A stretch of 64,000 bases of DNA, from assembly GCF_002285285.1 (NCBI RefSeq), contig NZ_NSJF01000001.1:186001-250000 (forward strand), in the 5' to 3' direction. The position numbers and the translations under genes were made by a program. Shown here one piece after another: positions 4,901 through 33,103 of this stretch. Numbering within the stretch: the first letter of the stretch is position 1; the number at the start of each line of letters is the position of its first letter. The stretch is from Vandammella animalimorsus (lineage in GTDB: Bacteria; Pseudomonadota; Gammaproteobacteria; Burkholderiales; Burkholderiaceae_C). The notes beneath the pieces are model-generated. The model had not been told where the DNA came from and ran no database searches. It saw only the letters and a list, made by a program, of their open reading frames with translations.

Positions 4901-4964
4901 CCAGCAGCAATACCCGTTTGACCCATCTGCACATGGCGTACAGGGCCACGCAGAGCAGCTTTGA
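1920..4964 (+). CDS. rne: Ribonuclease E
   Basis: Essential endoribonuclease that initiates mRNA decay and processes rRNA and tRNA. The start [10 protein letters not shown] and the S1 domain (about 35-125) match E. coli closely. The catalytic aspartates are D301 and D344, and the Zn-link cysteines are C402 and C405 (CPRCGGTG); both spacings equal those of E. coli D303/D346 and C404/C407. Beyond about residue 520 the protein is a low-complexity Arg/Glu/Ala/Pro-rich tail, the usual unstructured degradosome scaffold. AAAGGA precedes the ATG. Total 1014 residues. The gene is followed 18 nt later by yaaA on the same strand. Confidence 0.97.
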
Positions 4965-4982
4965 TACGGGGGAGGCGCTGCC

Positions 4983-5777: not shown

Positions 5778-5969
5778 CACGCTCTAGGCTCGGCACATCG
5801 GCCCGCAAGCTGTGTGCGGCTGACGCGATTCCAGCCAGGCCGCGCTGCATCGCGCAGCCGCAGATTGTGAGAACATGCAGGCTTTGCCCTGGCTGCATGT
5901 TTTTGACGCCATGCAGCAGCGGCAGACACTGCGCATCGATGTTCAATATTCATAGGGAGGAAGCAGGAC

Positions 5970-6890: not shown

Positions 6891-6948
6891 CCTATGGCGG
6901 TGCCAGAGCCTCGCTCCTGGCCCAAGGCCTATTGCCTGTTTTCAGAGC

Positions 6949-7722
6949 ATGTTGTCCCGTCTGCGAGCCGATATCCGATGCATTCTTGAGCGCGACCCCG
7001 CAGCGCGCAACGCCTGGGAGGTCGTGACCTGCTACCCTGGCCTGCACGCCATTTGGCTGCACCGCATTGCGCATTGGTTCTGGCGGCATCGGCTGTACTG
7101 GCTGGGGCGGCTGACCTCGCATTTCGGGCGTTGGTGCACCGGCATCGAGATCCATCCCGGCGCGCGCATCGGCCAGGGCGTGTTCATCGACCACGGCATG
7201 GGCGTGGTGATTGGCGAAACCGCCGAAATCCACGATGGCGTGACCATCTACCAGGGCGTCACGCTGGGCGGTACCTCGTTGCACAAGGGCAGCAAGCGCC
7301 ACCCCACCATCGGCGCAGGTGCCGTCATCGGCGCTGGCGCGCAGGTGCTCGGCGGTTTTGAAGTGGGCGCTGGCGCCAAGGTCGGCAGCAATGCCGTAGT
7401 CACCAAGCCTGTGCCGGCAGGGGCCACGGCCGTGGGCAATCCGGCGCGTATCATCCAGGCCGACAGCGACCGTCGCCGCGAGGAGGCCTCGGCCCGCATG
7501 GGCTTTTCCGCCTACGGCGTCACGCAAAGCGACGACCCCGTCTCCCAGGCGCTGCGCGGCCTGATCGACACCGCCGCACACTACGAAGAGCAAATCGCCC
7601 GCCTGTGGCAGGAGATCGAGCGCCTCTCCGGCCAACAGCCCCGGGCCGCAGAGGCCCCGGCAGAGGCTGCGCCGGGCGAAGAATCCGAACTGAAAAAACT
7701 GCGCGAGCTGGTGGACGAGTAA
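6949..7722 (+). CDS. cysE: Serine O-acetyltransferase
   Basis: Catalyses acetyl transfer from acetyl-CoA to serine, the first step of cysteine synthesis. After an N-terminal helical region ([20 protein letters not shown]) the left-handed beta-helix of hexapeptide repeats runs from about 65 to 165, with the active-site motif [14 protein letters not shown]. The 257-residue product is the short EpsC-like type with an extra Glu/Ala-rich C-terminal tail. The start was chosen at the ATG that matches the family; the same frame is open further upstream inside the previous gene but that part is not protein-like. Confidence 0.93.
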
Positions 7723-7725
7723 CGC

Positions 7726-7743
7726 ACCGCGCCTGAGCGCGGT
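7726..7743 (+). terminator. Hairpin just after cysE
   Basis: ACCGCGC and GCGCGGT pair around CTGA, beginning 4 nt after the cysE stop. There is no U-tract, so it may only protect the 3' end or act as a weak terminator. Confidence 0.3.
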
Positions 7744-7866
7744 CGCGCTGGCCAAGCGCGCGCTGGTCGCCCGCACACTGCGCTAACATCTTGCGCATTG
7801 CCCGCACATGGCCCATGTCGCCCCAGCACGGCGCGTGGGCCGCGCTTTTTCATGGAAGCCCCGGCC

Positions 7867-10800
7867 ATGGTCTTGCTCTATCGCCCCCATCAGGAACCTT
7901 CTTCCTATGCCATTGCGCTGCGCCCTGGCGTGGCAGCCGGCATGCGGGTCTGGGCCGGCCCTGGCCAGGGTGAGGCGGTGGCCTGGCATGTCTGCCCGCC
8001 TGCGGCCGACATGGATGCCCAGGCCGCCCAGCAGCGCGTGCAGCGCCTGGTGGCGGCGCGCGCGCGTGAGGGCTTTGTCGAACAGCAGGGCGCAGCGGGC
8101 AGCGCGGCCCAGGAGCCGCTGGCGCAGCTCTCGCTGGCCCTGCCGCCTTGGCAGGCAGAGCCAGCTTTGGCGCAGGCGCTGAGCCAGCGCCTGCACCCCG
8201 ATGTCTGGCGCACCCTCTCGCCGCGCCAGCGCAGCCGCCTGGTCTGGCGCATTGGCGAAGTGCGGCTGACGGGCGTGGCCGGGCAGTTGCTGGCCTATGC
8301 CGGCAGTGGCGATGCCATGCTCGACTACTGCCTGGCCTGGGCCTTGTGCCGCTGTACGGCCGAGCACGATGCCCAGGCCGATGCCGTGCGCGCGCAACTG
8401 CAGCGTTGGGCCCGGCAAGCGCCCGATGCCGCCTTGCAATACCTGGCCGGCGTGGCCTGGTTGGCCCTGAGCAGCCAGGCCGAGCGTGAGCGGCATGCCC
8501 AGGCGCTGATGGCCGACTGGCCTGCGCGCCTGCGCGAAGCCAGCGCGGCCGCCACGCCGGCCAGCTTCGCCGCTGCGCTGGCCGAAGGCGCGCTGGATGG
8601 CAGCCCGAATGGCGGCCCGGATGGTGACCTGTGGCAGCGCCTGCCGCACGGGCAATGGCTGGAGCAGCTCGACCAGGTCGCCCAGTCGCCCGCGCACCGC
8701 CATTGGGCCCGACCCCTGCTGCTGCAGCAATTGCAGACGCTGCCGCTGGAGTACGGCAGCTTTCGCAGCCTGCGGCGCCTGTACAAGGCCGCGCAGCTGC
8801 GCCTGGACGCGCAGCTGTTGGGGCTGCTGAACTGGCGCTTCGAGACCACGCCGCACAGGCCGCCGCCCGATCCTGATGCGGCCCGCCCGTCGGCCCAGCC
8901 AGCGCTGGCCCACGCCTGGGGCCGGCGCACGCGCCAATACTTTCTGCGCCGCAGCTGGCGCACGCTGCGCCGCCTGGGGCAATTGGGCAGCCCGCACTAC
9001 GTGCTGCTGGCCACGGCGGCCTTGCTGGCTTATGACGAGCAGCCACCCCAGGCCGGCAGCAGCTGGACCTTGCTCGAACACATCGCAGGCCAGGCCGCGC
9101 AGCAGGTGGCCGCAGCCGGCGGTGCAGGGCAGGGCGTGCCATTTGCCGCGCTGTGGGCGCAATGCCCGCAGGCCGTGCCGCTGCTGCTGCATGCGCGCAA
9201 CCCGGCCGTGGCGGCGCTGGCCGTGCGCCTGATGCAGCAGCAGCCGGCCTTGCAGGCCAGCCAGACGCCCGATGCCTGGTTGCAGCTGCTGGACAGCCGC
9301 CATGCCTGCGTGGCCCGGTACGCGCTGGAGCAAGTGCGCCACCTGCTCGACGCCGGGCGCGGCGATGCCCAGCAGCACAGGCGTTGGCTGACGCAACTGG
9401 CCCGCGCCACCTTGCCCGAAGCACAGGCGCTGGTGCTTCAGACCCTGAGCCAGGATCCGCGTCGCCACGGTCGCGACCCCGAGCTGCTGCTGGCGCTGTT
9501 GCTGGCGCCGCAGCCGCCGATGCGGCAAATGGCGCGCCTGCTGCTCGACAGCGCAGCCCACGAGCCGGGCGTGGCGCGCGCCTGCATCCAGGCCCTGCAG
9601 CATTGGCTGGAGGACGCCGAGCCATGGAGCGCCGCCTGGCAGGATGCCGAGCCCGACGTGCTCTGGGCCCTGCGGGAGCCGCTGCTGCATGCGGCAGCCA
9701 CGCAAGCCTATGCGCCATTGCTGCCCCTGCTCGAGCACCACGTGCCGCAGGCCGTGTGCTGGGCTGCGGCCTGGCTGGCGCAGCACCCGGGCTTTGCCGC
9801 GCAGCCGCCCATGGCTGCCTTGCAGCGCCTGCTGGACAGCCGCGACGAGCCGTTGCACCAGCGCGCAGCCGCGCTGCTGTTTGCCGCGTTGCCAATGCGC
9901 CTGCAGCAACAAGAGCCGGCGCTGCTGCAGGCCTTTGCCGGCAGCGCCCATGCGCCGGTGCGGGCCGTGGCGCACAGCGCCATCGCCGAGCTGGCTCGGC
10001 AGCGCCCAGCGGGCTTTGAAGCGTTGGCCCAGGCCTTGGTGCCGGGGCTGCTGGATTTGCTGTTTCGCGCCGAGCCCGCACCGGGCCTGCATGCCGATCT
10101 GCTGGCCCTGCTGCAAGGCCCGCTGCAACAGGCCGCGCAGGCGCTGGATGCCGCCACCGTGCTGCGCCTGCTGCTGGCCAAAAGCCAGGGCGCGCAGCAA
10201 CTGGGGCTGTGGCTGCTGCCCGGCCAGCCGCGCAGCGCCTGGGCGGTGGGCGAATGGGCCGCGTTGGCGCGCAGCCCGCTGCAGGCCGCGCGCCAATGGG
10301 CCATCGAGGCCTACCGCAGCCAGCCCGAGCAGGTGCAGGCCAAACTGGAAGACGCGCTGCGCATTTTCGACAGCCGCTGGGACGACGCGCTGGACTTCGC
10401 CTGTGGCTACTTCCAGCAGCCGGCCTTTGTGCAGGCCGCGCTCTGGCCGCACGCGCGCCTGATCGGCCTGTGCGACCACAGCCAGCCCCAGGCCCAGCAA
10501 TGCGGCCGCGCTCTGCTGGCGCAGCTGGTGCCCATGCCCGAGCTGCTGCACTACCTGCTGCAGCTGAGCCAGCACCCCAGCGCCGCCATGCAGCAGCTGG
10601 TGGCCGATTGGCTGGAGCAAGGCGCGCTCGATGGCGCTGCCGATGCCGTGCATGCGGCCCATACTGAAGATGGAGCATCCACCGCAGATGCCGCAGCTCA
10701 GGCCCCAGCCCGGCAGCTGGCGCGGCTGCAGCAGCTGCGGCCGTACTTCGTGCAGGTGCTCTCGCAGGTCAACCGCGCGCGCCAGCTCAAGAGCCGGGTG

Positions 10801-11088
10801 CAGCGCTTTTTGTTGGCCCAGGCGCTGCAATCGCCCGAGGCCGCAGCCTTTGTCAGCGGCCTGTACGAGCGCCTGGTGGTGGGTATGGCTGTGGGCGACC
10901 GGGAGCACTACCTGCACAGCCTGCTGGCCATCCAGGCGCGCTACCCGCAGGTTGCCACGCCGCTGCACATCCTGGCCACGCCGCTGTGGCGAAGGGAAAA
11001 GCCGCACGAATCCAGCGATCCCGTGTGCGCTGCGACTCGCGCAGGTCTGGCCAAGGGCGCAGCCGCGCAGCAGGGGGCCTTGCCATGA
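7867..11088 (+). CDS. Large HEAT-like repeat protein with a possible degenerate WGR N-terminus
   Basis: About 1073 residues, no enzyme motif recognised. The bulk is Leu/Ala/Gln-rich helical pairs resembling HEAT/ARM repeats (for example the segments around LLDSRDEPLHQRAA and GSAHAPVRAVAHSA). The first 75 residues (RVWAGPGQGEAVAWHV and AREGFVE) faintly recall a WGR domain. The start is uncertain: ATG 7867 gives MVLLYRPHQEP and has GGAAG 8 nt upstream; ATGs at 7852 and 7798 are alternatives. Its stop overlaps the next gene's ATG (ATGA), so the two are coupled. WGR/HEAT proteins beside SWIM proteins occur in MoxR-vWA gene clusters such as E. coli yehI-yehQ, but no MoxR or vWA gene is present here. 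Confidence 0.7.
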   Translation: MVLLYRPHQEPSSYAIALRPGVAAGMRVWAGPGQGEAVAWHVCPPAADMDAQAAQQRVQRLVAARAREGFVEQQGAAGSAAQEPLAQLSLALPPWQAEPALAQALSQRLHPDVWRTLSPRQRSRLVWRIGEVRLTGVAGQLLAYAGSGDAMLDYCLAWALCRCTAEHDAQADAVRAQLQRWARQAPDAALQYLAGVAWLALSSQAERERHAQALMADWPARLREASAAATPASFAAALAEGALDGSPNGGPDGDLWQRLPHGQWLEQLDQVAQSPAHRHWARPLLLQQLQTLPLEYGSFRSLRRLYKAAQLRLDAQLLGLLNWRFETTPHRPPPDPDAARPSAQPALAHAWGRRTRQYFLRRSWRTLRRLGQLGSPHYVLLATAALLAYDEQPPQAGSSWTLLEHIAGQAAQQVAAAGGAGQGVPFAALWAQCPQAVPLLLHARNPAVAALAVRLMQQQPALQASQTPDAWLQLLDSRHACVARYALEQVRHLLDAGRGDAQQHRRWLTQLARATLPEAQALVLQTLSQDPRRHGRDPELLLALLLAPQPPMRQMARLLLDSAAHEPGVARACIQALQHWLEDAEPWSAAWQDAEPDVLWALREPLLHAAATQAYAPLLPLLEHHVPQAVCWAAAWLAQHPGFAAQPPMAALQRLLDSRDEPLHQRAAALLFAALPMRLQQQEPALLQAFAGSAHAPVRAVAHSAIAELARQRPAGFEALAQALVPGLLDLLFRAEPAPGLHADLLALLQGPLQQAAQALDAATVLRLLLAKSQGAQQLGLWLLPGQPRSAWAVGEWAALARSPLQAARQWAIEAYRSQPEQVQAKLEDALRIFDSRWDDALDFACGYFQQPAFVQAALWPHARLIGLCDHSQPQAQQCGRALLAQLVPMPELLHYLLQLSQHPSAAMQQLVADWLEQGALDGAADAVHAAHTEDGASTADAAAQAPARQLARLQQLRPYFVQVLSQVNRARQLKSRVQRFLLAQALQSPEAAAFVSGLYERLVVGMAVGDREHYLHSLLAIQARYPQVATPLHILATPLWRREKPHESSDPVCAATRAGLAKGAAAQQGALP

Positions 11089-12806
11089 AGTTCCAGTACC
11101 GCTACCTGGGCCACAGCACGGCCCACAGCACGGCCCAGGCCACCCAGCTCTCGTTCGCGCCCGACACGCTGCGCAGCCCGGTGTTCTTCGAGGCCGAGCT
11201 GGCGCAGCAGCTGCCGTTTCGCGAAGCCATCAGCGCACTGCACGACGTGGTGCTCAGCGACCTGCGCCCGCAGCAGCAGGACCGCACGGCCTACTTCGCC
11301 TGGCTGCAGGCGCATGAGCCGCAGCTGCTGGCCGACTTCATGGCCCAGGAGCAGGCCGTGCGCCAGGAGATGGCCCAGACGCGCCGCGAGCTCGACGCCG
11401 TGCGGGCCGAAAAACATGCGCTGCAGGCCCCGTTCCTCAAGGCGCAGCAGCGCTATTTCGACTACCTCTACCAGCAGCACCGCGATGCCTGGTTCGTGCT
11501 CGATCCGGTCATCACCGTGCACCCGGACAAGCTGTTCTTCGAATGCTTCAGCCGCGATGAGGCCAGCTACGCCGCGCTCAGCTGCAGCCACGAGAGCTTT
11601 CGCCACCACGGCGCTTTCTCTTGCGGCACGACCAACATCGACTACTCGTCCGGCCTGTACCAAGAGTTCCAGCAAATCCGCGACTACCGCAAGACCACGC
11701 TGGCCGTGGCCGCCGACGGCTTTGCCGTGCAGCATGGCCAGGCTGCGGCCTTCGTCGAGAGCCAGATCGAGCTGCCCGACAGCTGGGTGCGCGGCTTTCT
11801 GCAAGTGAGCAGCGCCATGACGCTGCCGGCCCACACCGTGCAGCTGCACCCCATGGACGTTTACAACATCTGCCATGTGCTGCGCCGCCGCCGCGAGCGT
11901 ACAGGGCCGCGCTCGATCCGCTTTTTCCTGCAGCCCGGCGCGCCGCTGCGCATGCGCTTCGAGCCCTGGAGCGTGGATGTGCACTGCCCGCGCTCCATCT
12001 ACACCGGCAGCCAGGAGGCCGAAATCCGCATCTGGGGCCGCAGGCGCTTGCTGACGCTGCAGCGTCTGATCCCCGTGGCCGAGCGCTTCACCGTGCATTT
12101 GCTGGGCAGTGGCATGCCCAGCTTCTGGATCGCCCACCTGCCCGGCGGCATGCAATTCACGCTGGGCCTGTCGGGCTGGACGGCCAACGACTGGGCCAGC
12201 CAGGCGCAGTTCGACCTGCTGGGCCCGCGCCACAGCGTGGCACCGCAGGCCACGGCGCAGGTGCTGGCCGCGCTGCAGCAACACTGGCTGGGCAGCACGG
12301 CGCAGCTGGCGGCGCAGACCGGCCTGCCATCGCCCACCGTGGTGGCCGCGCTGGTGCTGCTGACCCAGGCTGGGCGCGTGGTTTTCGACTTGGTGCAAGG
12401 CCTTTGGCGGTTGCGCGAGCTCAGCGCCCAGCCCTTGCCGTTGGAGAGGCTGCGCTACGCCAGCGAGCGCGAAGCCCAGGCTGCGGCCTTGCTGCACGGT
12501 GCGCAGCAGGCCGGCCAGCCTGTGCAGGTGGCGCGCCAGGCGCTGGGCGGCGGCCGCGAGTGCCTGCAAGCCAGCGTGGCCGATGGCGCGCAGCGCCACG
12601 AAGTGCAGCTGGAGCTGGACGCCGACGCCCGGCTGGAATCGGGCCGCTGCCAGTGCAACTTCTTCACCCAGAACCAACTGCGCCGCGGCCCCTGCGCCCA
12701 CATGCTGGCCGTGCGCATGGCCGACACCGCGCAGCGCATGCTGCAGCCCCAGGCCAATGCCGCAGCGCCTGCCTGGGCTGAAGTGCCAGGCGGGGATGAG
12801 GCATAG
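11085..12806 (+). CDS. SWIM zinc-finger protein
   Basis: The 573-residue protein ends in a SWIM zinc finger: C522-x-C524, then C537-x-H539 (CQCNF...GPCAH). The middle is rich in aromatic residues and has no recognised fold. Residues near 410-460 look like a winged helix (LAAQTGLPSPTVVAALVLLTQ). An N-terminal segment (about 85-125) looks coiled-coil. SWIM fingers bind DNA or protein. The gene starts within the stop codon of the HEAT-like gene, so the two products probably act together. It is distantly reminiscent of E. coli YehQ. Function unknown. Confidence 0.8.
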   Translation: MKFQYRYLGHSTAHSTAQATQLSFAPDTLRSPVFFEAELAQQLPFREAISALHDVVLSDLRPQQQDRTAYFAWLQAHEPQLLADFMAQEQAVRQEMAQTRRELDAVRAEKHALQAPFLKAQQRYFDYLYQQHRDAWFVLDPVITVHPDKLFFECFSRDEASYAALSCSHESFRHHGAFSCGTTNIDYSSGLYQEFQQIRDYRKTTLAVAADGFAVQHGQAAAFVESQIELPDSWVRGFLQVSSAMTLPAHTVQLHPMDVYNICHVLRRRRERTGPRSIRFFLQPGAPLRMRFEPWSVDVHCPRSIYTGSQEAEIRIWGRRRLLTLQRLIPVAERFTVHLLGSGMPSFWIAHLPGGMQFTLGLSGWTANDWASQAQFDLLGPRHSVAPQATAQVLAALQQHWLGSTAQLAAQTGLPSPTVVAALVLLTQAGRVVFDLVQGLWRLRELSAQPLPLERLRYASEREAQAAALLHGAQQAGQPVQVARQALGGGRECLQASVADGAQRHEVQLELDADARLESGRCQCNFFTQNQLRRGPCAHMLAVRMADTAQRMLQPQANAAAPAWAEVPGGDEA

Positions 12807-23139: not shown

Positions 23140-23901
23140 TCAGGCCAGCTCTTCCGGGCTGCGCCACTGCACCGCCTGGCCGCTGGTCAGCAGGCCGACG
23201 CGGTTGGCCATGATGCGCGCTTCCTGTTTGTTGTGCGTGACCAGGATGGCTGTGTGCTGGCCCTGGCGCAGGATGTCGCGCACTTCGTGCGCCAGGTGTT
23301 CGCGCAGCTCGGTGTCGAGGTTGGAGAACGGCTCGTCGAGCAGCAGCAACGCTGGCGAGGGCGCCAGCGCCCGTGCCAGCGCCACGCGTTGCTGCTGGCC
23401 GCCGGAGAGCTCATGCGGCCAGGCCTTGGCCGCCTGGGGCAGGCCCACCAGTTCGAGCATCTCGGCCACGCGCGCCTGGCGCTGGACGCGACCCAGCGTG
23501 CGCAGCCCGAAGGCGATGTTGTGAAACACGTTCAGGTGCGGGAACAGCGCGTAGTCCTGAAACATCATGCCCACTTGGCGCTGTTCGGGCGGCACGCTCT
23601 GGGCGGGGGAGGACAGCAGCTTGCCACCCAGATGTATGCTGCCTTCGCGCAGCGGCTCGAAGCCGGCGATGGCGCGCAGGATGGTGGATTTGCCGCAGCC
23701 GGAGGCGCCGATCAGGCAGGCGGTCTGGCCGCGCGGCAGCTGCAGCGAGAAGTCGCGCACGATCTCGCGCAGGCCCTGGGGCGTGTCATAGCCCAGGCGC
23801 AGCCGGTCAATGCCAAGAAAGGCGGCTTCCGGGCCGGTCTGCGGTGTGGCTTGCGTGGCGGGGAGCATCGTTTGCGACATAGGTGGCATAGGGCAATTCA
23901 T
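23140..23901 (-). CDS. fbpC: Ferric iron ABC transporter ATPase, short form
   Basis: ATP-hydrolysing subunit of an FbpABC-type Fe3+ importer. Walker A GASGCGKST is at 65-73, the signature LSGGQQQR near 167 and Walker B LLLLDEPF near 187, so it should be active. At 253 residues it lacks the C-terminal regulatory OB/TOBE domain of typical FbpC/AfuC (about 350). The ATG overlaps the permease stop (ATGA). A polyamine or thiamine transporter ATPase is possible by sequence alone, but the partner binding protein is FbpA-like. Confidence 0.88.
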   Translation of the reverse strand: MNCPMPPMSQTMLPATQATPQTGPEAAFLGIDRLRLGYDTPQGLREIVRDFSLQLPRGQTACLIGASGCGKSTILRAIAGFEPLREGSIHLGGKLLSSPAQSVPPEQRQVGMMFQDYALFPHLNVFHNIAFGLRTLGRVQRQARVAEMLELVGLPQAAKAWPHELSGGQQQRVALARALAPSPALLLLDEPFSNLDTELREHLAHEVRDILRQGQHTAILVTHNKQEARIMANRVGLLTSGQAVQWRSPEELA

Positions 23902-25643
23902 GCGATGGCCTGGCGCTGCGCGGCTACGGGCTGGGACGGCTTGGGCGCCTGTGGCCGCCCCGACGGGCCGTTGCCGCCCACGGCCAGCTGGGTGCGCGCC
24001 AGCACGATCACCGGCAACAGGCCGGCCAACACAATGGCCAGGGCGGCGATGGCGCCTTCTTCATAGGTGCCGCGCGCAGCCTCGGCATACAGCCGTGTGG
24101 CCAAGGTTTCGAAGTTCAGCGGGCGCAGCAGCAGCGTAGCGGGCAGCTCTTTCATGGTATCGACGAATACCAGCAGCGCGGCTGCGGCCAGCGCCGGGCG
24201 CAGCAGCGGCAGGTGCACGCGCCAGAGCGTGGCGGCGCTGCCGTGGCCCAGCAGGCGTGCGGCCTGCTCCAGCGAGGGCGGGATGCGCGCCAGTCCGGCC
24301 TCGATGCCGCCAATGGCAATGGCCATGAAGCGCAGCACATAGGCCATGACCAGCGCTGCGCTGCTGGCCATCAGCCACAGGCCCGGCTCGCGCAGCAGTG
24401 CAGAGATGCCCCGATCCATCAGCGCCAGCGGGCTGAGCAGACCGATGGCCAGGATGGTGCCCGGAATGGCATAGCCCAGGTGGCCGATGCGGGCGCAGGC
24501 CATGGCCCAGCGGCTGCGCTGCCCGTCGATGGCCAGGCGCGCCTGCCAGGCCAGCAGCAGGCCGCACAGCAGCGCGATGCCGGTGGCCGCCAGCGCCAGC
24601 GCCACGGTGTTGCGCAGGCTCGTCCACAGCGCTGGGGAGATGCTGTGCGCCTCGTGCAGGCGCTCGGCAGCGGCGCCGGCCAGGTAGGCGGCGGGCACGA
24701 CAAAACCCAGCAGCACGGGCAGTGCGCCCAGCAGCAGCGCCAGCCAGGCGCGGCCGCCGTGCAATTGGCGCGGCTGCGCCGGGCGCAGGCGCTGGGCGGT
24801 GGCAAAGCGCTGGCGCTGGCGGCCGCGCCGCTCCAGCAGGATCAGGGCCACGACCAGCAGCAGCATCAGCAGCGCCAGCTGCGCTGCGCCGCCCAGGTCG
24901 GAGCGCGTCACCCAGGTGTTGTAGGTGGCCACGGTCATGGTGCGCACGCCGAGGAACTCGGAGGCGCCGATGTCGTTGAGCGTCTCCAGCAGCGCCAGCG
25001 CCACGCCGGTGGCGATGCCCGGGCGCGCCATGGGCAGGGCCACGCGCCAGAACGCGCCGGCGGCCGAGCAGCCCAAGGTGCGCGCCGCCTCCAGCAGGCT
25101 GGCGCTCTGGCTCATGAACATGAAGCGCGTGCTCAGGTACACATAGGGGTAGAGCACCAGCGACAGCAGCGCGATGGCGCCGGGCAGCGAGCGCACATCG
25201 GGCAGGCGAAACTCGCGCGGGCTGCTGTAGCCCAGCAGTTCGCGCACCCAGCCTTGCAGCGGGCCGATGGGGTGCAGCACGTCCAGGTAGGCGTAGGCGA
25301 TCACGTAGCTGGGGATGGCCATGGGCAGCAGCAGCGCCCAGACCAGCAGGCCACGGCCGGGGAAGCGGTAGGCCGTCACCAGCCAGGCCGCGCCCGTGCC
25401 GATGGCCGTGACCAGCAGCCCCACGCCCAGCAGCAGCAGCAGCGTGTTGCGCGCCGCCACGGGCAGCACGTGCCGGGCCAGGTGCGACCAATGGTCCCAT
25501 TGCGCATGCTGGGCATGCCACAGCAGCGCGGCGATGGGCGCCAGCGCCAACAGCGCCAGCAGGGTGCAGGCCAGGCCGGCGGGCCAGCCCAGGCGGTGCG
25601 GGGCGCGCAGCGGCGCGGAAAGGGGCAGGGCGGTGTCGGACAA
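23898..25643 (-). CDS. fbpB: Ferric iron ABC transporter permease (fused two-domain)
   Basis: The 581-residue inner-membrane protein contains two fused permease halves, each with about six hydrophobic segments. The EAA-type loops are EAARTLGCSAAGAFWRVALP (about 185-204) and EQAARLLGHGSAATLWRVHL (about 470-490). There is no ATG near the N-terminus: an in-frame TGA lies three codons before a TTG, so the TTG at 25643 is the best start. It sits between fbpA and fbpC. Confidence 0.9.
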   Translation of the reverse strand: MSDTALPLSAPLRAPHRLGWPAGLACTLLALLALAPIAALLWHAQHAQWDHWSHLARHVLPVAARNTLLLLLGVGLLVTAIGTGAAWLVTAYRFPGRGLLVWALLLPMAIPSYVIAYAYLDVLHPIGPLQGWVRELLGYSSPREFRLPDVRSLPGAIALLSLVLYPYVYLSTRFMFMSQSASLLEAARTLGCSAAGAFWRVALPMARPGIATGVALALLETLNDIGASEFLGVRTMTVATYNTWVTRSDLGGAAQLALLMLLLVVALILLERRGRQRQRFATAQRLRPAQPRQLHGGRAWLALLLGALPVLLGFVVPAAYLAGAAAERLHEAHSISPALWTSLRNTVALALAATGIALLCGLLLAWQARLAIDGQRSRWAMACARIGHLGYAIPGTILAIGLLSPLALMDRGISALLREPGLWLMASSAALVMAYVLRFMAIAIGGIEAGLARIPPSLEQAARLLGHGSAATLWRVHLPLLRPALAAAALLVFVDTMKELPATLLLRPLNFETLATRLYAEAARGTYEEGAIAALAIVLAGLLPVIVLARTQLAVGGNGPSGRPQAPKPSQPVAAQRQAIA

Positions 25644-25704
25644 GGCGGGTCAAAGGCCCCAGGGGCCGAAGAAAAGCAGCCGGCGGTGGTGCTGCGCGTC
25701 AATG

Positions 25705-25732
25705 GCAAAACGCCGCCCAGTGCTGGGCGGCG
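25705..25732 (-). terminator. Intra-operon terminator/attenuator between fbpA and fbpB
   Basis: Perfect 10-bp inverted repeat CGCCGCCCAG/CTGGGCGGCG with a 2-nt loop. On the minus strand it is followed by TTTTG. It lies about 75 nt after the fbpA stop. Partial termination here would give more binding protein than membrane subunits, as in many ABC importers. Confidence 0.7.
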
Positions 25733-25805
25733 GCGAGGAGGGGCAGCTGCGCTGGCCCGCCATGGACGGCGGGGCGCAGCTGGCAGGCAAGATCTGCGAT
25801 TGCGA

Positions 25806-26846
25806 TCAGTTGTCGAAGCCGACCTTGTCCACCAGTTCGCTGGCGAGCTTGCGGTGCTTGGCCACTTCCGTCAGCTGCAGGGTGTCTGCCTTGAGCGGGC
25901 CGAAGGATTCGGTCACCGGATCGAGCTTGACGCCTTCGCGGATCGGGTACTCGTAGTTGGCGTTGGCGTAGAGCTCTTGGGCCGGCACGGACACCAGGTA
26001 CTCCAGCAGCTTGACGGCGTTGTCCTTGTTGGGGGCATTCTTGGCCACGGCGCCGCCGGAGATATTCACGTGCGTGCCGCCGTCCTTGCCGAAGGTCGGG
26101 CGCACCACTTTGATGGCCTGGCCCCACTTGTAGTCGTCGCTCTCGGGCTTGGCATTCTTCATGCGGCCCACGTAGTAGTTGTTGGCGATGCCGATGTCGC
26201 AGATGCCGCCCAGGATGTCGCGCGCCACGTTGCGGTCGCCGCCGGTGGCCTTGCGCGCCAGGTTGGCCTTGACGCCCTTGAGCCACTGCTCGGTGGCCTC
26301 GGCGCCGTTGTGCGCGATCATGGCCGAGATCAGCGCCGTGTTGTAGGGGTGCTGGCCGGCGCGGATGCAGACCTTGCCCTTCCACTTCGGGTCGGCCAGG
26401 TCTTCATAGGTGAAGCTGGACAGATCCAGATCCTTGTCCACGTACAGCACGCGGTCGCGCAGCGACAGCGCAAACCACTCGCCATTGGCGCCGCGCAGGT
26501 GTGCAGGCAGCGTGCTGGTCAGCGCCTCGGACTGGATCGGCTGTGTGACGCCGGCATTGACCAGATCCAGTAGGTTGCCGATGTCCACCACCATGAACAC
26601 GTCCGCAGGCGATTGCGCGCCCTCGGCCTTGGCGCGCTCGAGCAGGCCATCCTTGACGAACACCGTATTGACCTTGGTGCCGCTGTCTTTCTCGAAGGCC
26701 TTGAGCAGCGGCTCGATCAGCGCCGGCTCGCGCGTGGTGTAGAGGTTGACCTCGCCAGCGGCCAGGGCAGCGGGCGAGAAAGCGCCTGCGCCCAGGGCGA
26801 GCAGGGCGGCGCACAGGGTGTTGCGCTTGAAGTTGCGAGCGGACAT
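25806..26846 (-). CDS. fbpA: Periplasmic ferric-binding protein
   Basis: Fe3+-binding component of the ABC importer. The 346-residue precursor has a signal peptide ending AALA near residue 29. The paired tyrosines Y224-Y225 (ANNYYVG) are the iron ligands of the FbpA/FutA family, and FVKDGLLERAKAEG near 63-76 is also typical. GGAGG lies 8 nt before the ATG. A Fur-box-like site is upstream. Confidence 0.92.
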   Translation of the reverse strand: MSARNFKRNTLCAALLALGAGAFSPAALAAGEVNLYTTREPALIEPLLKAFEKDSGTKVNTVFVKDGLLERAKAEGAQSPADVFMVVDIGNLLDLVNAGVTQPIQSEALTSTLPAHLRGANGEWFALSLRDRVLYVDKDLDLSSFTYEDLADPKWKGKVCIRAGQHPYNTALISAMIAHNGAEATEQWLKGVKANLARKATGGDRNVARDILGGICDIGIANNYYVGRMKNAKPESDDYKWGQAIKVVRPTFGKDGGTHVNISGGAVAKNAPNKDNAVKLLEYLVSVPAQELYANANYEYPIREGVKLDPVTESFGPLKADTLQLTEVAKHRKLASELVDKVGFDN

Positions 26847-26911
26847 GGGAAAACCTCCGTCTTGGGGTGGGATGAAATACAGCAAAGCCGCCATTGTAGG
26901 CCGGGGCTGCG

Positions 26912-26936
26912 TGTGAGAATCAAAATCAATCATCAC
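26912..26936 (-). promoter_or_regulatory. Fur-box-like operator upstream of fbpA
   Basis: On the minus strand the tract reads TGATGATTGATTTTGATTCT with flanking bases. It contains three GATT-type units and partial symmetry resembling the consensus GATAATGATAATCATTATC. The region is AT-rich against its surroundings and lies 65-90 bp from the fbpA ATG, where iron repression would be expected. The match is imperfect. Confidence 0.5.
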
Positions 26937-27010
26937 AGACAGAATGGTAAAGGCCTGGCCCAGCGCCGGGCCGGGCTGGGCCGGGTTGGCGCTGGGCAAT
27001 AATCGGCGCG

Positions 27011-28459
27011 ATGGACCCCCTACTGGATCACGACGAAGACGGCGGCAGCTTCGAGGCGTATTTCCGCGCCCCGGCGCTGGCCGCTGAAGCGCCCCTGGCC
27101 TGGGCGCTGGGGCAGCGGCTGGAACTGCTGGATGCGCTGCGCAGCCTGTTTTCCGGGCCGCGCCACGTGGTGCAGCTGCGCCTGTGGTGCTTTCTGGAAC
27201 TGGCCAGCACGCCCAAGGGGCGTGTGGCGCGCGATGATCTGAACCTGCTGTTTCACGCCCTGCAGCCGCAGGCGCTGGAGAACGTGCTCAAGCGCCTGCG
27301 CGAGGCCGGCTTGCTGGTGTGGGATGCCACCCAGCAGGACTACGCCCTGTCCGATCTGGCGCGGCAGGTGCACAGCCTGCTGGCGCCGCTGACGCAGACC
27401 GCCGGCGAGGACGATGACCTGGCCGGCCTGCTGGCCCAGGTCGCTGGCGCGCAGGCCCTGGGCCTGGCCGATGCCACGCAGCTCAAGCACCTGCATGCCC
27501 AGTTGGCGCGCTTGCACGATGAGTTTGCCGATGCCATTGCCAGCGGCTCCGAGGCGCGGCTGCGCCAGGCCCAGCCGCGCTTTGCGCGCGCGCTGGCCCT
27601 GGTCGAGCGCGCCGGGCAGGCGCTGACGGCGCTGATCCGCAGCGACAGCGGCGATGTGCGGCTTGAGCGCGAGGCGCGCGCGCTGGGCTATGCCCAGGCG
27701 CGGCTGCTGTCCATGGCCAGCCAGTTCAACCGCGCCATGCAGCAGGCCGACCGCCAGCGCGTCACGCTGGGCAGCACCGGCGTGACCAACTCCGACGTGC
27801 GCGACTGGTTGCGCGAGCAGGCCGCCCTTCCTGAGCTGCTGTGCGGCGCGCTGGCCGTGGGGGTGCAGCCCTGGCTGCTCAGCCAGCACGATTTGCTGGA
27901 CGTGGCCGAGGCCGAATTCGAGCGCGACCGGCCCGACCCGCAGCGCAGCAGCGCCTTGCCGCCGCCGGCCGATGCCGCAGGCGGCACGCTGGACGTGCCC
28001 AGCCTGCCCGAGGAGCTGCATGGCCTGATCGAGCTGCTGGCGCAGTGGCAGGCGTCGGCCCAGCAGGCCGGGCCGGCCGAGGCGCAGCCAGATACCCAGC
28101 CCGATGGCCCAGCCGCCGCGCCGCCGCGCCCGCTGCATGAGGCCGTGCTGGGCGGGCGTTTCGCCCAGGCTGCCTACCGCATGCAATTGCTGCCGCTGCT
28201 GGGCGATGCCCAGGCGCAAACCCTCAAGGGCCAGACTGGTGAGCTGGCGCGCTCAGGCTGGCGCGCTTCGCTCTCGCCGCGCGTGCTGCCGGTGCAGCAC
28301 CACGCCGTGCAGGCCATGAGCGAAGGCTGCCTGCACCCTGAACAATCCCAGCCGCCGCCCTGGCCGGCCATGGCGTTGCCAACTGCCCAGGCCGCCCAGG
28401 CTGTGGCCGCCGGCCCGCGCCGTGGCCGCCCCCCGCGAAAAAATTCTTCCAAACCATGA
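27011..28459 (+). CDS. MukF/MksF-like kleisin subunit of a condensin operon
   Basis: The 482-residue, Leu/Ala-rich, mostly helical protein carries a winged-helix region at about 55-115 (HVVQLRLWCFLELAS through LKRLREAGLLVWD). A central helical part (about 150-270) resembles the MukF/MksF neck. Residues 300-400 are an acidic/proline-rich linker and the end is very basic (RRGRPPRK). It opens an operon with a KITE-like and an SMC gene, which supports the kleisin role. An AATAAT box 7 nt before the ATG suggests a leaderless mRNA. Its stop overlaps the next ATG. Confidence 0.75.
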   Translation: MDPLLDHDEDGGSFEAYFRAPALAAEAPLAWALGQRLELLDALRSLFSGPRHVVQLRLWCFLELASTPKGRVARDDLNLLFHALQPQALENVLKRLREAGLLVWDATQQDYALSDLARQVHSLLAPLTQTAGEDDDLAGLLAQVAGAQALGLADATQLKHLHAQLARLHDEFADAIASGSEARLRQAQPRFARALALVERAGQALTALIRSDSGDVRLEREARALGYAQARLLSMASQFNRAMQQADRQRVTLGSTGVTNSDVRDWLREQAALPELLCGALAVGVQPWLLSQHDLLDVAEAEFERDRPDPQRSSALPPPADAAGGTLDVPSLPEELHGLIELLAQWQASAQQAGPAEAQPDTQPDGPAAAPPRPLHEAVLGGRFAQAAYRMQLLPLLGDAQAQTLKGQTGELARSGWRASLSPRVLPVQHHAVQAMSEGCLHPEQSQPPPWPAMALPTAQAAQAVAAGPRRGRPPRKNSSKP

Positions 28460-29241
28460 ACAGCACAACCGACGAAGCGGCCCTGCTGGCCGCCGAGCTG
28501 CTGGCGCGCCGCTGGCTGCCGCGCCAGCATCCGCGCATCCGCCGCGCCCTGGTCGATGCCGAACTCTGGCAGGCGCTGGAGCAGCGCCTGGCCGGCGTGG
28601 GCCTGCGCCTGGTGGACAACATCCACGCCGACCACGTCACCGTGGCGCTGGCGCGCAGCGCCGAGAACGCTGTGCTGGGCGAGACTGGGCTGGCCAGCCA
28701 CAACAACTTTGACCTTCCGCGCGATGGCGTCTCGCTGCTGGTGGTGCTGTGGGCGCTGATCGTGCTTCCCAAGCGCGAGCGCCAGGCCGCGCGCGGCAAC
28801 GCCGCCGATGCCCCCGGCCAGGGCGAGATGTTCGCCAGCGAAAAGCCCATGCCCAAGGCCGCCAGCGTCAGCCCGCTGGTTTCCTACAAAGCGCTGCTGG
28901 CCGACTTTGGCCCGCAGCTGGGCAAGAAAACCCGGCTGGACATGAACCTCAAGCGGCTGGAGAACCACGGCTTCATCCTGCGCCGTGGCGACGACATTGC
29001 CGAAGGCCCGCTGCTGGATCTGCTGCTGGACTACGACGTGATGGCGCCGCGCATTCTGGAAGGCACGCTGGCCCAGGTGCTGGAGCGCGCCCGCGCGGCC
29101 GAGGCCCAGGCTGCGCCGGCAGAAGCCGCATCGGAAGAGGCCACGCCACAGGCTGCGCCTGAAGCCACGCCCGCGCCCCCATCGGATGCGCGCCCCGATG
29201 TCGCGCCCGCGCGGCCCGAGGCCCAGCCGCCCGTCGCCTGA
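28456..29241 (+). CDS. MukE/MksE-like (KITE) subunit
   Basis: The 261-residue protein has winged-helix-like content in its first 200 residues (SLLVVLWALIVLP near 95 and NLKRLENHGFILRRGDDI near 165). A disordered Ala/Pro/Glu-rich tail covers about 205-261. In bacterial condensins a KITE protein of this size binds the kleisin and is encoded between kleisin and SMC, exactly the position here. It begins inside the stop codon of the kleisin-like gene. Sequence similarity is low, so the assignment leans on context. Confidence 0.7.
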   Translation: MNSTTDEAALLAAELLARRWLPRQHPRIRRALVDAELWQALEQRLAGVGLRLVDNIHADHVTVALARSAENAVLGETGLASHNNFDLPRDGVSLLVVLWALIVLPKRERQAARGNAADAPGQGEMFASEKPMPKAASVSPLVSYKALLADFGPQLGKKTRLDMNLKRLENHGFILRRGDDIAEGPLLDLLLDYDVMAPRILEGTLAQVLERARAAEAQAAPAEAASEEATPQAAPEATPAPPSDARPDVAPARPEAQPPVA

Positions 29242-29255
29242 ACCGAACCTGCCCC

Positions 29256-32072
29256 ATGTTTCATCTCCAATCCATCGAACTGCTGCACTGGGACTACTGC
29301 CAGCGCCTGAGCCTGCCGCTGGACGGCGCCATCATCACCGTGGCCGGGCCCAACGGCTCGGGCAAGACCACGCTGCTGGATGCCATGCGCACCCTGCTGG
29401 GCCTGGAATGCTCGGGCGGGCGCAGCTTCAAGACCTACGCGCGCCACGCCAACGCCGATGCCTCCTGGCTGCGTGCAGTGGTGGACAACCGCCCGCGCAC
29501 GCGGCAAAGCTCCAGCCGCCCCTTTGCGCGCAACCTGCTGTATGCCGACCAGGTCACGCTGGCCTGCCGCATCCAGCGCAACAGCGGCGACTGGCAGCGG
29601 CGCTACTACATGGCCGATGGCGACGTGGCCATCGAGCAGCTGCTGGAGTTGCCCGACAAGGACTGGCTGGGCATCGAGCACTGGCGCCGCCGGCTGGAGA
29701 CGGCTGGCCTCTCGCGCGCCATCGCCCGCGTGCTGGCACTGGAGCAGGGCCAGACCGACCGCCTGTGCGAATACTCGCCCAAGGAGCTGCTGCGCCTGGT
29801 GTTCGACGTGTTCGGAGACCAGGAAGTGCTCGATCGCTACGAAGAAGCGCGCCGCCACCAGCGTGACGTGGCCGACGAAGCCGAGGCCGCCGCCAAAGAG
29901 CTGGCCCACGGCCAGGCCCAGCTGGCGCTGGTGGAGGCGCGCCTGAACCTCTACCGCCAGTACCAGGCCAAGCTGCGCGAGCGCGAGCGCCTGCACACCG
30001 AAGTCATCCCCGTGCTGGAATGGCGCGACGCGCGCGACGCCATGCTGGCCGAGGCCCAGGACTTGCACCGCCAGCGCCTGGAGCATGGCAAAAGCCTGGC
30101 GCGCCAGCGCCAGGACCGCCAGGCGCTGCTGCAGCTGGCGCAGCAGCAAGAGCAACTGGCCGTACAGCTGGCCCAGGCCGAGGCCCAGCGCAAAGCCGCG
30201 CAAGAGGCCCTGAGCGAAGCGCGCGGCCACGAAACCCCGGTCGAGGACCTGGTGCGGCAAGCCGACGAGCTGCATGCGCTGGCCCAGGTCGAAGGCGATG
30301 CGGAGCAACTGGCCCTGCGCGTGCAGCAACTGCAGCAACAGTGCCAGGCGCACGAGCGCGATTGGCACACCCGTCAGCAGGAACGCGAGGCCGCGCAGCG
30401 CGCCCTCGAACAATTGCGCAGCGCCCGCACCGCCCCGCGCCCGGAGGAAGCCACGCGCTTTGCCCAGCTGCTGTGCCAGCAGGGCATTGCCCATCACTTT
30501 GTGGCCGAGGCCATCGAAATCATCGACGAGCAATGGCGCGCGGCCGCCGAAGGCGTGCTGCGCAGCGCGCGCTGGGTGGTGGTGCTGGACGATCCCGCCG
30601 ACGAAGCCCGCGCCAGCCAGCTGGCCGAGCAGCAGCGCTACCGCCACTACCTCGTGGCCGATGCCGCGCCCGCGCCCGAGCGCGTGCCGCCGCACAGCCT
30701 GCTGGCCGCGCTGCACGTGGCCGCGCCGCTGCCCGTGTGGCTGCTCAGGACGCTGGCGGTCATCCGCTGCGTGCCCGACACCGCCGCCGGTTTTGCCGCT
30801 GGCGGCGAGTGGATCACCCCGCAGGCCTACTGGCGCGACGTCCGCGGCGGGCGCAGCGTTTGGGTGCCGCCCGGCCAGCACCAGTTCGGCGCCGCTGCGC
30901 TGGCCGCGCGGCGCGAATCCATCGAACAGCGCCTGGCCGAGCTGGATGCGCAGCTGCAGGCCATCGCCCAGCAGCAGCGCGAGAGCGAGCGCCAGCTGCA
31001 GGCCGCCAAGGCCGCCGCCGCTGGCCACCGCGCTGCCGAGGAGCTGGCGCGCCGCAGCGAGGAATTTGCCACCGCGCGCAGCCAGCTGGCGCAGCTGCGC
31101 CAGGCGCGCATCAGCGCTGGCCAGCGCTACGCCGAACTCGATCAGCAGCACCAGCGCCTGGGCGAGCAGCTGCGCCAGGCGCAAAGCCAGTACCAGCAAA
31201 CCCAGCAACGCCTGCAGGGCGACGAATCGGCTGCCAGCCGCTTTGCGCGCGAATGGCAGGGCCGCCGCGATGCGCTGCGCACGCGCAGCGCCCAATCGCG
31301 CCGTCAGCGCGGCCAATTCCCCCCGCGCTGGATCGCGCCCGAGGCCATCGCGCAACTGCGCGAGCAGTTCACCAACGCCACGCAGGCGCGGCTGCGCGGC
31401 CAGGCCGTGGCCCGCGAGCTGGAGGAGGGCGAATGGGAAACCGACCCCAGCATCGAGGAGCGCCACACGCTGATGGTCGCCCAAGTGGCTGGCCAGCAGG
31501 CCCAGTTGCAGCAGCGCCAGGCCAGCAACGAGTCGGCCCGCATCGCCGTGGACAACGCCCGCGAGCGCTACATCGATGTGCTGCGCGCCACCGTGCGCCG
31601 CTACCGCAAGAACATCACCGAGCTGGGCGAGCTGGCTGGCGTGGCCGTGCAAGCCGATACACCGCACCTGGAAAACGACGACGCGGCGCTGCGCCAGGCC
31701 GAGCTGAGGGTGCATTTCAACTTCGATGGCAAGGGGCAGATCGGCCTGAACGACGGCGAGGCTTCGGGCGGGCAGCAGGTCATCAAATCGCTGATCCTGC
31801 TGGTGGGCCTGCTCAAGGACGACGAAGCCTCGGGCGGCTTCGTCTTCATCGACGAGCCCTTTGCGCACCTGGACGTGCGCAACATCCAGCTGGTGGGGCA
31901 CTTTCTCAAGTCCACGCGCGCGCAGTACGTGCTGACCACGCCGATCACGCACAACGTCGAGGTCTTCGAGCCGGCCGACGTCACCCTGGTCACCGCCAAG
32001 AAAAAGCCTGGCGAGCGCTGGGCCCCGCCCATTGGCGTGCTGCAGCGCCGCGTGGCGCCCGAGCAGTATTGA
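29256..32072 (+). CDS. Short SMC-like ATPase (MksB/JetC-like)
   Basis: The 938-residue SMC protein has Walker A GPNGSGKT at 31-38. An N-terminal coiled coil spans about 195-390 and a hinge-like domain about 395-560 (GIAHHFVAEAIEIIDEQW, RWVVVLDD). The return coil spans about 560-760. The signature SGGQQ is at 837-841 and Walker B FVFIDEPFAHLD ends near 873 (E867). The arms are much shorter than those of SMC or MukB. Starts 14 nt after the KITE-like gene. Both head halves look intact, so it is probably a functional DNA loop-forming or plasmid-acting condensin. Confidence 0.85.
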   Translation: MFHLQSIELLHWDYCQRLSLPLDGAIITVAGPNGSGKTTLLDAMRTLLGLECSGGRSFKTYARHANADASWLRAVVDNRPRTRQSSSRPFARNLLYADQVTLACRIQRNSGDWQRRYYMADGDVAIEQLLELPDKDWLGIEHWRRRLETAGLSRAIARVLALEQGQTDRLCEYSPKELLRLVFDVFGDQEVLDRYEEARRHQRDVADEAEAAAKELAHGQAQLALVEARLNLYRQYQAKLRERERLHTEVIPVLEWRDARDAMLAEAQDLHRQRLEHGKSLARQRQDRQALLQLAQQQEQLAVQLAQAEAQRKAAQEALSEARGHETPVEDLVRQADELHALAQVEGDAEQLALRVQQLQQQCQAHERDWHTRQQEREAAQRALEQLRSARTAPRPEEATRFAQLLCQQGIAHHFVAEAIEIIDEQWRAAAEGVLRSARWVVVLDDPADEARASQLAEQQRYRHYLVADAAPAPERVPPHSLLAALHVAAPLPVWLLRTLAVIRCVPDTAAGFAAGGEWITPQAYWRDVRGGRSVWVPPGQHQFGAAALAARRESIEQRLAELDAQLQAIAQQQRESERQLQAAKAAAAGHRAAEELARRSEEFATARSQLAQLRQARISAGQRYAELDQQHQRLGEQLRQAQSQYQQTQQRLQGDESAASRFAREWQGRRDALRTRSAQSRRQRGQFPPRWIAPEAIAQLREQFTNATQARLRGQAVARELEEGEWETDPSIEERHTLMVAQVAGQQAQLQQRQASNESARIAVDNARERYIDVLRATVRRYRKNITELGELAGVAVQADTPHLENDDAALRQAELRVHFNFDGKGQIGLNDGEASGGQQVIKSLILLVGLLKDDEASGGFVFIDEPFAHLDVRNIQLVGHFLKSTRAQYVLTTPITHNVEVFEPADVTLVTAKKKPGERWAPPIGVLQRRVAPEQY

Positions 32073-32089
32073 AGAAGGGCCAGAACACC

Positions 32090-33103
32090 ATGCCCAGCGA
32101 CACGCCACTGCCGAGCGCCGCCGCCCTGGATGAGCTGCCCGGCCAGCCCTGGTGGCCGCAGCTGACGCCGCCCATGCGCGCCATCGTCACCGGCATGGCG
32201 CGCGCCCAGCGCGCGCCGCTGCACACGCTCACGCCGCAGCAGGCGCGGCAGGCCTATCGCAGCGGCGCGCAGGTGCTCGAAGAAGATCGGCCGGCGCAGG
32301 TGCAGCACCGCGACGCGCACATTCCGGCGCGCGATGGCCATGCGCTGGCGGTGCGGCTCTATACGCCTCAGGCTCAGCGCGGCCCGGCCGCCGCGCCCTG
32401 GCCGGTATTGCTGTACCTGCACGGCGGGGGCTTTGTCGTGGGCGATCTGGACACGCACGACGTGCTGTGCGCGCGCATCGCCCACAACGCGCAGCTGGCC
32501 GTGCTGGCGCTCGATTACCGGCTGGCGCCGCAGTGGCGCTTCCCTACGGCGCTGCACGATGGCTGGGACGCGCTGTGCTGGCTGACGCGCCACGGCGCGC
32601 AGTGGGGGCTGGACGGCCAGCGCCTGGCCGTGGGCGGCGACAGCGCTGGCGGCACGCTGGCGGCGGTGTTGGCGCTGATGGCACGCGATGCAGCCCTGCC
32701 GCTGCAGGCGCAGCTGCTGATCCACCCGGGCACCAGCGCCTGGCAGGACACGGCCTCGCACCAGCGCCATGCCCGCGGCCCGGTGCTGAGCGCGGCGCTG
32801 CTGCAATGGTTTTTCGCCCACTACATCGAGCCGGCGCAGCGCCAGGACTGGCGCTTTGCGCCGCTGCTGGCGCCCGAGGTGCAGGCCGTGGCCCCGGCGC
32901 TGTTCGTGCTGGCCGAGTGTGACCCACTGTGCGACGAAGCCCTGGCCTATGCCGATCGGCTGCGCATGCAGGCCGTGCCGGTGGAGCTGGAGCTGTACCG
33001 GGGCGTGGCGCACGAGTTCATCAAGATGGGTCGCCTGCTGCCCGAAGCGGCCTGGGCCCATGCGGCCATCGGCCAGTTCCTGCGGGCGCGCCTGCACGCC
33101 TGA
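32090..33103 (+). CDS. Alpha/beta hydrolase, hormone-sensitive-lipase family (esterase)
   Basis: Carboxylesterase of the HSL/fold-3 type. The oxyanion motif HGGG is at 111-114 and the nucleophile elbow GDSAGG at 183-188 has S185. The acid is probably in ECDPLCDEA and the histidine in VAHEF near the C-terminus. 337 residues, no signal peptide. It lies 17 nt after the SMC gene with AAGAAGG upstream, so it may be read through from that operon, but no functional link is evident. Confidence 0.9.
   Translation: MPSDTPLPSAAALDELPGQPWWPQLTPPMRAIVTGMARAQRAPLHTLTPQQARQAYRSGAQVLEEDRPAQVQHRDAHIPARDGHALAVRLYTPQAQRGPAAAPWPVLLYLHGGGFVVGDLDTHDVLCARIAHNAQLAVLALDYRLAPQWRFPTALHDGWDALCWLTRHGAQWGLDGQRLAVGGDSAGGTLAAVLALMARDAALPLQAQLLIHPGTSAWQDTASHQRHARGPVLSAALLQWFFAHYIEPAQRQDWRFAPLLAPEVQAVAPALFVLAECDPLCDEALAYADRLRMQAVPVELELYRGVAHEFIKMGRLLPEAAWAHAAIGQFLRARLHA

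Follow-up and report, generated by a model that had tools for sequence, protein, structure and literature searches.

The window, the whole stretch of 64,000 nucleotides of Vandammella animalimorsus DNA that was analysed, contains a nuclease-free three-gene condensin operon in the order F-E-B, with a short SMC subunit, that is best filed as MksBEF. Judged from sequence comparison, this operon probably descends from a Wadjet-like four-gene system from which mksG was lost, and MksBEF would on balance have been kept as a nuclease-free accessory condensin beside Smc. The operon and its downstream flank consist of the following features.

27011..28459, plus strand: mksF-like gene, 482 aa, likely kleisin (ORF, AF2 model)
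28456..29241, plus strand: mksE-like KITE gene, 261 aa (weak DUF4194 match, AF2 model)
29256..32072, plus strand: mksB-like SMC ATPase gene, 938 aa, short coiled-coil arms (motifs, SMC_N and JetC matches)
29346..29369, plus strand: Walker A codons, GPNGSGKT, residues 31–38
31764..31778, plus strand: ABC signature codons, SGGQQ, residues 837–841
31839..31874, plus strand: Walker B/D-loop codons, FVFIDEPFAHLD, residues 862–873
32073..32089, plus strand: 17 nt gap where mksG begins in G-bearing relatives, in which no remnant was found
32090..33103, plus strand: lipase/esterase gene occupying the place of mksG (LipP1 match)

The start of mksE overlaps the stop of mksF by 4 bp (ATGA), and mksE and mksB are separated by 14 nt. 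A first-pass annotation of this DNA had described three overlapping or abutting reading frames in this order together with the three ATPase motifs; the coordinates of the frames are exactly as first noted and all three motif positions are exact on rechecking. It had also pointed out that the gene following mksB is an esterase and not JetD/MksG. Profile searches agree for the window, where neither JetD/MksG nor a remnant was found with three profiles (best E value 0.63), and the genome, which is 3.08 Mb in 13 contigs and 99.6% complete, gave no hit with either PF09983 or A4, the G profile of the subfamily. The missing nuclease is thus confirmed in the window but does not extend to all of its surroundings in the tree, as a survey of neighbouring genes reveals a JetD-like gene right after mksB in some close relatives. 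The downstream gene starts 17 nt past the mksB stop and encodes an alpha/beta-hydrolase of the hormone-sensitive-lipase type (LipP1, E = 4.5e-87, under the cut-off of the model). Among the best 80 of 90 relatives, a lipase/esterase gene adjoins mksB only in L011 and L012. L011, also V. animalimorsus, is the closest relative, with a B protein 97% identical to that of the window. Directly upstream of mksF, positions 23140–26999 on the minus strand hold a divergent ABC transporter cassette, which includes a solute-binding protein. The solute-binding protein matches SBP families and is of the iron type by eye, and the cassette is also kept beside mksF in two Lampropedia loci (L013 and L082).

The identity of the SMC subunit is firm. 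The window protein matches SMC_N with an E value of 9.1e-14, and the best solved-structure match of the SMC family profile A1 is JetC (8dk2_C, E = 4.2e-10). The ATPase motifs are intact in every related full-length SMC that was checked. In relatives with all three genes, complete MksB is 930–953 aa long. The distance from Walker A to the signature is 799–830 in 25 rows of the window's subfamily, 942–962 in 12 loci labelled as JetD-type (among them L134, in which JetD was undetected), and 951–1153 in 11 further DUF4194-linked SMCs; in the canonical Smc of the window's genome it is 1054. The DUF4194-linked SMCs found outside the window's subfamily, a set from which L130, L147 and L151 were dropped since they yielded no SMC, have adjusted lengths of 1091–1226 aa and are all longer than those within it. 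The window SMC belongs to a distinct subfamily, found mainly in Burkholderiales, that is short-armed throughout. In a tree of head domains, from which MukB and RecN were left out because the motif is missing, this group is a separate long branch to which the tree assigns no sister group.

The assignment of the mksE product as a KITE is likewise firm. DUF4194 matches the window protein with an E value of 0.0039 and 23 of 28 family members weakly (best 6.9e-5), while a profile alignment with hhalign against pooled KITEs gave a weak signal (22.6% probability). The AF2 model (pLDDT 73.5) has the tandem winged helices of a KITE subunit and lies nearest to JetABC entries in Foldseek. The top matches are 8dk1_F (E = 2.5e-6) and 8as8_C (E = 4.5e-6), from the JetABC entries of PA14 and Escherichia coli, chains which we take to be JetB. 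Entries of Nse1-Nse3-Nse4 and ScpAB follow, and MukE-MukF comes lower (E = 9.4e-2).

The mksF product is likely to be a kleisin, as suggested by its predicted structure. In the AF2 model (pLDDT 75.8, pTM 0.37), winged helices at the N- and C-termini flank a helical bundle, which is the layout of a kleisin. The expectation of the first-pass annotation that this protein is kleisin-like finds partial backing here: the top four Foldseek matches are all MukBEF and JetABCD chains, but their E values of 1.1e-3 to 2.1e-2 are marginal, with no match under 1e-3 and TM-scores below 0.3 for kleisin chains. No convincing match to the mksF product was found in Pfam or PADLOC (29 members each) or in NCBIfam (window protein only). 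Using hhalign, F could be linked neither to JetA/MksF-type sets nor to MukF; this comparison is powerless, as reference kleisin pairs such as MukF and JetA likewise gave no link.

A fourth gene is present in part of the family. Clustering of the genes downstream of mksB brought out a homologous frame of about 400 aa, already open at the mksB end, in 26 of 71 loci. With profile searches, mksG adjoins mksB in 31 of the 74 loci that are full-length, and L080 has a fragment; this set includes the window, excludes L050, where the contig ends at mksB, and scores L080 as G-less. In the 31 loci the start of mksG falls within a range from 4 nt upstream to 20 nt downstream of the mksB end. All four subfamily members compared with PADLOC JetD1 match it (4.7e-12, 4.2e-6, 5.6e-13 and 1e-10). 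Conserved motifs are an invariant glutamate, a DxD motif and a terminal EQE, which we read as the Toprim residues. Pfam JetD_C (PF09983) matches none of the mksG proteins of L072, L040, L073 and L155, and NCBIfam none of three. In the solved-structure search the sole match is an O-methyltransferase with an E value of 0.68. DUF2399, which is counted as JetD family in the accessible part of PMC7251935, scores above its cut-off in one of the four proteins. The picture of relatives that are JetD-free beside mksB, as obtained from PF09983 searches, is wrong for the G-bearing ones and represents a false negative of that model, which was revealed by the clustering of downstream genes. Among the comparators, L141, L142, L144, L146 and L148–L150 have JetD-like genes according to the profiles that were missed by blastp with three JetDs. 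Surveys of the JetD_C or NCBIfam type may therefore undercount this nuclease, and the kleisin is likewise without a convincing family match.

The operon as such is well conserved. F, E and B are present at least partly in 73 of the 80 related loci analysed, which are the best 80 of 90 relatives found; six of the remaining seven are cut by contig ends, and L089 is without detectable F. This co-occurrence indicates that the operon is not due to chance. A canonical Smc is found in all 42 genomes searched (the window's own and those of 41 of the 80 loci), above the cut-off in 40 and in pieces in two, and MksBEF would therefore be an accessory condensin. The window's type of SMC is present in two of 369 genomes in an even draw of the class, one of which is the window's own (E ≤ 1e-20), and in 46 of 300 in an even draw of the order, own included (E ≤ 1e-40). 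In the latter draw G is found in nine genomes, all within the 46 that bear the SMC; these searches scored just two and six candidates in each genome and could overlook nucleases of high divergence. A further 36 G-less loci from this draw were analysed with three profiles (E < 1e-3). F and E with no JetD-like frame were found in 34 of them, in each of which 1.9 kb or more of sequence follows, and four of four G-bearing controls were recovered; the other two could not be judged owing to a contig end (L190) and a frame that runs on (L216). In other-family DUF4194 operons, a JetD-like gene lies near mksB in 16 of the 21 that are readable, with the proviso that 12 of these 16 themselves served to build the profiles. 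The nuclease-free state is common in the window's subfamily and less so in the other-family DUF4194 set. The tails of F and E differ little between G-less and G-bearing operons (medians of 457 versus 445 aa and 246 versus 234 aa, respectively).

Some loci deviate from the compact arrangement. In four members of the Aquabacterium clade (L030, L045, L088 and L090) the operon is split between E and B by about 2.0–2.7 kb, and the insert holds two genes, by eye one for a TetR-like regulator and a larger one. These insert genes were considered as nucleases and rejected, as by eye the smaller is a TetR-type regulator and the larger protein resembles no known nuclease. In L216 the mksB frame (4521–12236) extends to 2572 aa, only model positions 1–879 match, and we take its C-terminal head to be fused or rearranged. 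Among plasmid records, only two Variovorax entries (NZ_LR594690.1 and NZ_LR594663.1) match at an E value of 1e-20. At the best place both carry about half of mksB, as if broken.

Among known systems, Wadjet type I (MksBEFG or JetABCD) has the gene order of this operon. The KITE fold is nearest to JetABC and the SMC profile to JetC, and in some close relatives a JetD1-like gene takes the fourth position as it does in Wadjet. Unlike Wadjet type I, the window has no nuclease, its SMC measures 938 aa versus 1091–1226 aa (adjusted) for other DUF4194-linked SMCs, and its kleisin and KITE are without a good PADLOC or Pfam match. E. coli MukBEF has the same F-E-B order and, taking F as the likely kleisin, the same kleisin plus KITE architecture, but MukB is 1486 aa long and the window scores 12.7 bits (E = 0.11) with PF04310, which has a cut-off of 23. 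Smc-ScpAB also combines an SMC ATPase with a kleisin and a KITE; the window SMC, however, reaches 50.3 bits where the cut-off of TIGR02168 (SMC_prok_B) is 567 bits, and the true Smc is encoded elsewhere in the genome. In contrast to RecN, SbcC and Rad50, a KITE and a kleisin-like protein are encoded beside the window SMC, and SbcC_Walker_B stays under its cut-off. The first-pass annotation had named an SMC of the RecN/SbcC lineage lacking a kleisin partner, or F and E genes of unrelated families, as outcomes that would speak against a condensin, and neither was encountered. LmuB models of Lamassu match the window ATPase (8.3e-17) and one kleisin row weakly (1.8e-4), but the window SMC gene is flanked by genes for a kleisin-like protein, a KITE-like protein and a lipase.

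Petrushenko 2011 is said to be the founding MksBEF paper. Compared by description, the window's operon resembles MksBEF of Pseudomonas aeruginosa in being a condensin that coexists with Smc-ScpAB, and the part of the source at hand has MksBEF spanning several distantly related families (PMC7485682). The P. aeruginosa system is proposed, in the available text of PMC10586767, to derive from an SMC complex for plasmid defence that lost its nuclease; a nuclease-free MksBEF and its proposed origin by JetD loss are thus already known. Among the literature matches listed, no paper deals with this Burkholderiales subfamily or with recurrent loss of mksG, which is weak evidence given the thin coverage of subscription journals. 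The window's subfamily looks different from P. aeruginosa MksBEF, and distant. In 119 genomes, the family of which was taken as Pseudomonadaceae from an OprF match, the window SMC profile has four matches, all partial, and the MksB-like SMC L149 has 11, two of them near full length.

The distribution of mksG was mapped onto trees of mksB. The tree of 75 rows requires at least 14 changes of G state, 12 of which are forced by well-supported branches. A tree of 114 rows, which adds 34 G-less and four of the nine G-bearing draw genomes as well as L155, and in which L082 is scored as G-bearing and L059 as of unknown state, requires at least 21 changes, 17 of them forced; it was built with a simpler model and comes with long-branch warnings. 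An ancestral G would imply 25–26 losses, more than the 21 steps of equal-cost parsimony, and G is the minority state (nine of 46), which makes it likely that G was gained or replaced in some cases. Herbaspirillum L040 and L070 have SMCs with 96% identity but G proteins with only 49%, and G alleles therefore seem to have been swapped.

In three of 14 pairs of a G-less locus and a G-bearing partner (L032/L057, L074/L040 and L066/L062), G is cleanly absent with the flank in register, the partner's post-G flank following mksB within 30–71 nt. A clean joint was not seen in the other 11 pairs: in four the flank was found with other DNA in between (L074/L070, L027/L038, L034/L075 and L081/L062) and in seven only the end of mksB could be matched, including the Vandammella pair L011/L072. 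The nearest G-bearing relatives of the window are Lampropedia puyangensis and Corticibacter populi, and loss of mksG in the Vandammella line (three rows) is the simplest reading. As L011/L072 does not provide a clean joint, a deletion in this line would be deduced from the tree.

The numbers can also be read in the other direction, with the three-gene form being ancestral and mksG acquired repeatedly. This alternative concerns the history only and is compatible with the functional readings. The minority status of G, the parsimony count of 21 versus 25–26 for pure losses, the Solimonas rows that are also without G and the exchanged alleles of Herbaspirillum fit it. We nevertheless consider it rather unlikely, since B and G distances run in parallel (r = 0.81, n = 32, with none of 2000 permutations as high), a G remnant exists (L080), and it is one and the same gene that abuts mksB, in a shared position and orientation. 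The JetD-like gene near mksB in 16 of 21 other-family operons, together with L155, which has G there, argues in the same sense.

Entrapment and translocation of DNA by ring-type complexes is established biology for SMC complexes of the KITE type. MksBEF would be an ATP-driven ring complex of this kind, probably dimeric. Two short-armed MksB molecules would be joined at the hinge, and the kleisin MksF and the KITE MksE would close the ring. With its shorter arms, the complex would be expected to have less reach. The complex would spend ATP to entrap DNA and then translocate along it or bridge it. In the Wadjet model, as given in the available text of PMC10586767, the motor fully extrudes a small circle and then triggers JetD; a motor without JetD would be limited to folding or bridging DNA. 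The ancestor would have been a four-gene Wadjet-like MksBEFG, from which mksG was dropped here and in many sister lineages, and selection would retain the remaining MksBEF as a non-cutting condensin with a putative chromosomal role.

Based on analogy, a role as accessory chromosomal condensin is the most likely one, and non-cutting control of plasmids ranks second. In the latter case MksBEF would still recognize small circles and, by compacting or sequestering them, lower their copy number, expression or segregation. It is related to the plasmid-cleaving Wadjet family, the chromosome is already served by the canonical Smc, and compaction of circular DNA is given as a model for Smc5/6 in the part of PMC10586767 at hand. 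Nonetheless, deletion of mksB, mksF or mksG in Corynebacterium glutamicum each raises the plasmid yield, so that the nuclease is needed there (PMC10123090, available portion). MksBEF of P. aeruginosa, moreover, works on the chromosome, with roles in its organization and segregation according to the accessible parts of PMC7485682 and PMC10586767. Plasmid control without cutting is therefore unlikely.

A role in defence could be preserved if MksBEF recruited an unlinked or borrowed nuclease encoded elsewhere. In genome-wide searches the subfamily G profile recovered six of six positive controls. Of the genomes that lack G next to mksB, 42 were searched, the window's own among them but not L032, and 39 have no G match anywhere. 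In L082, L. puyangensis, the contig with mksB, recognized by its equal length, carries an intact mksG about 9.5 kb further downstream; L080 retains just a remnant, a fragment interrupted by a stop, and L059 gives a weak match (E = 2.8e-10). The displaced mksG of L082 groups with that of Corticibacter, as does its mksB. Other genes fill the interval of about 9.5 kb between mksB and mksG in L082, as seen in L082 10821–18817 and L178, and its genome contains a separate conventional JetD (L123/L153). PF09983 matches elsewhere in six of 42 genomes, strongly in three (L013, L063 and L082). While the displaced gene of L082 and these PF09983 matches are what a borrowed nuclease would look like, the window's own genome has no match to either profile, and mksB is not followed by any common substitute: of the gene families downstream, G itself is the largest (26 of 71) and the next one has five of 71. 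A borrowed nuclease is accordingly very improbable.

Selection on the three genes was estimated as omega using a simple Nei–Gojobori count. Omega of B is 0.024–0.117 in ten G-less pairs, three of which fall within the window's line and are not independent, versus 0.041–0.144 in six G-bearing pairs. Purifying selection on the SMC is thus similar whether or not the nuclease is present, and the low omega indicates that the motor is under selection. For F the values are 0.036–0.275 (eight G-less pairs) versus 0.082–0.129 in G-bearing pairs, and for E 0–0.341 (nine G-less pairs) versus 0.026–0.193. The highest F and E values (0.16–0.34) are found in the window's own line, where these two subunits are perhaps slightly, or partially, relaxed. 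That the operon is a decaying relic, a broken Wadjet heading for loss, would agree with the absent nuclease, these F and E values and the split operons of some relatives, but is hardly credible given ATPase motifs that are intact in all related full-length SMCs checked, an omega of B of 0.11–0.12 in the window lineage and 0.02–0.11 in other G-less pairs, and a G-less state that persists through an Aquabacterium-type clade of 20 rows (19 of known state).

The proposed retention of MksBEF as an accessory condensin after loss of mksG has implications beyond the window. The nuclease-loss step appears to have occurred many times within one subfamily, in which close partners have and lack mksG. Such partners make the question testable, namely what the motor does alone and which changes are needed once the cutter goes. 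More tentatively, and with somewhat less confidence than for the window itself, the short-armed MksBEF of Burkholderiales may be a DNA motor with a detachable cutter, the nuclease often being lost, moved or swapped and a defence system that cleaves plasmids repeatedly being converted into a condensin free of the nuclease. If this is true, the motor would be useful to the cell without cutting, and the family would provide a natural series of independent conversions.
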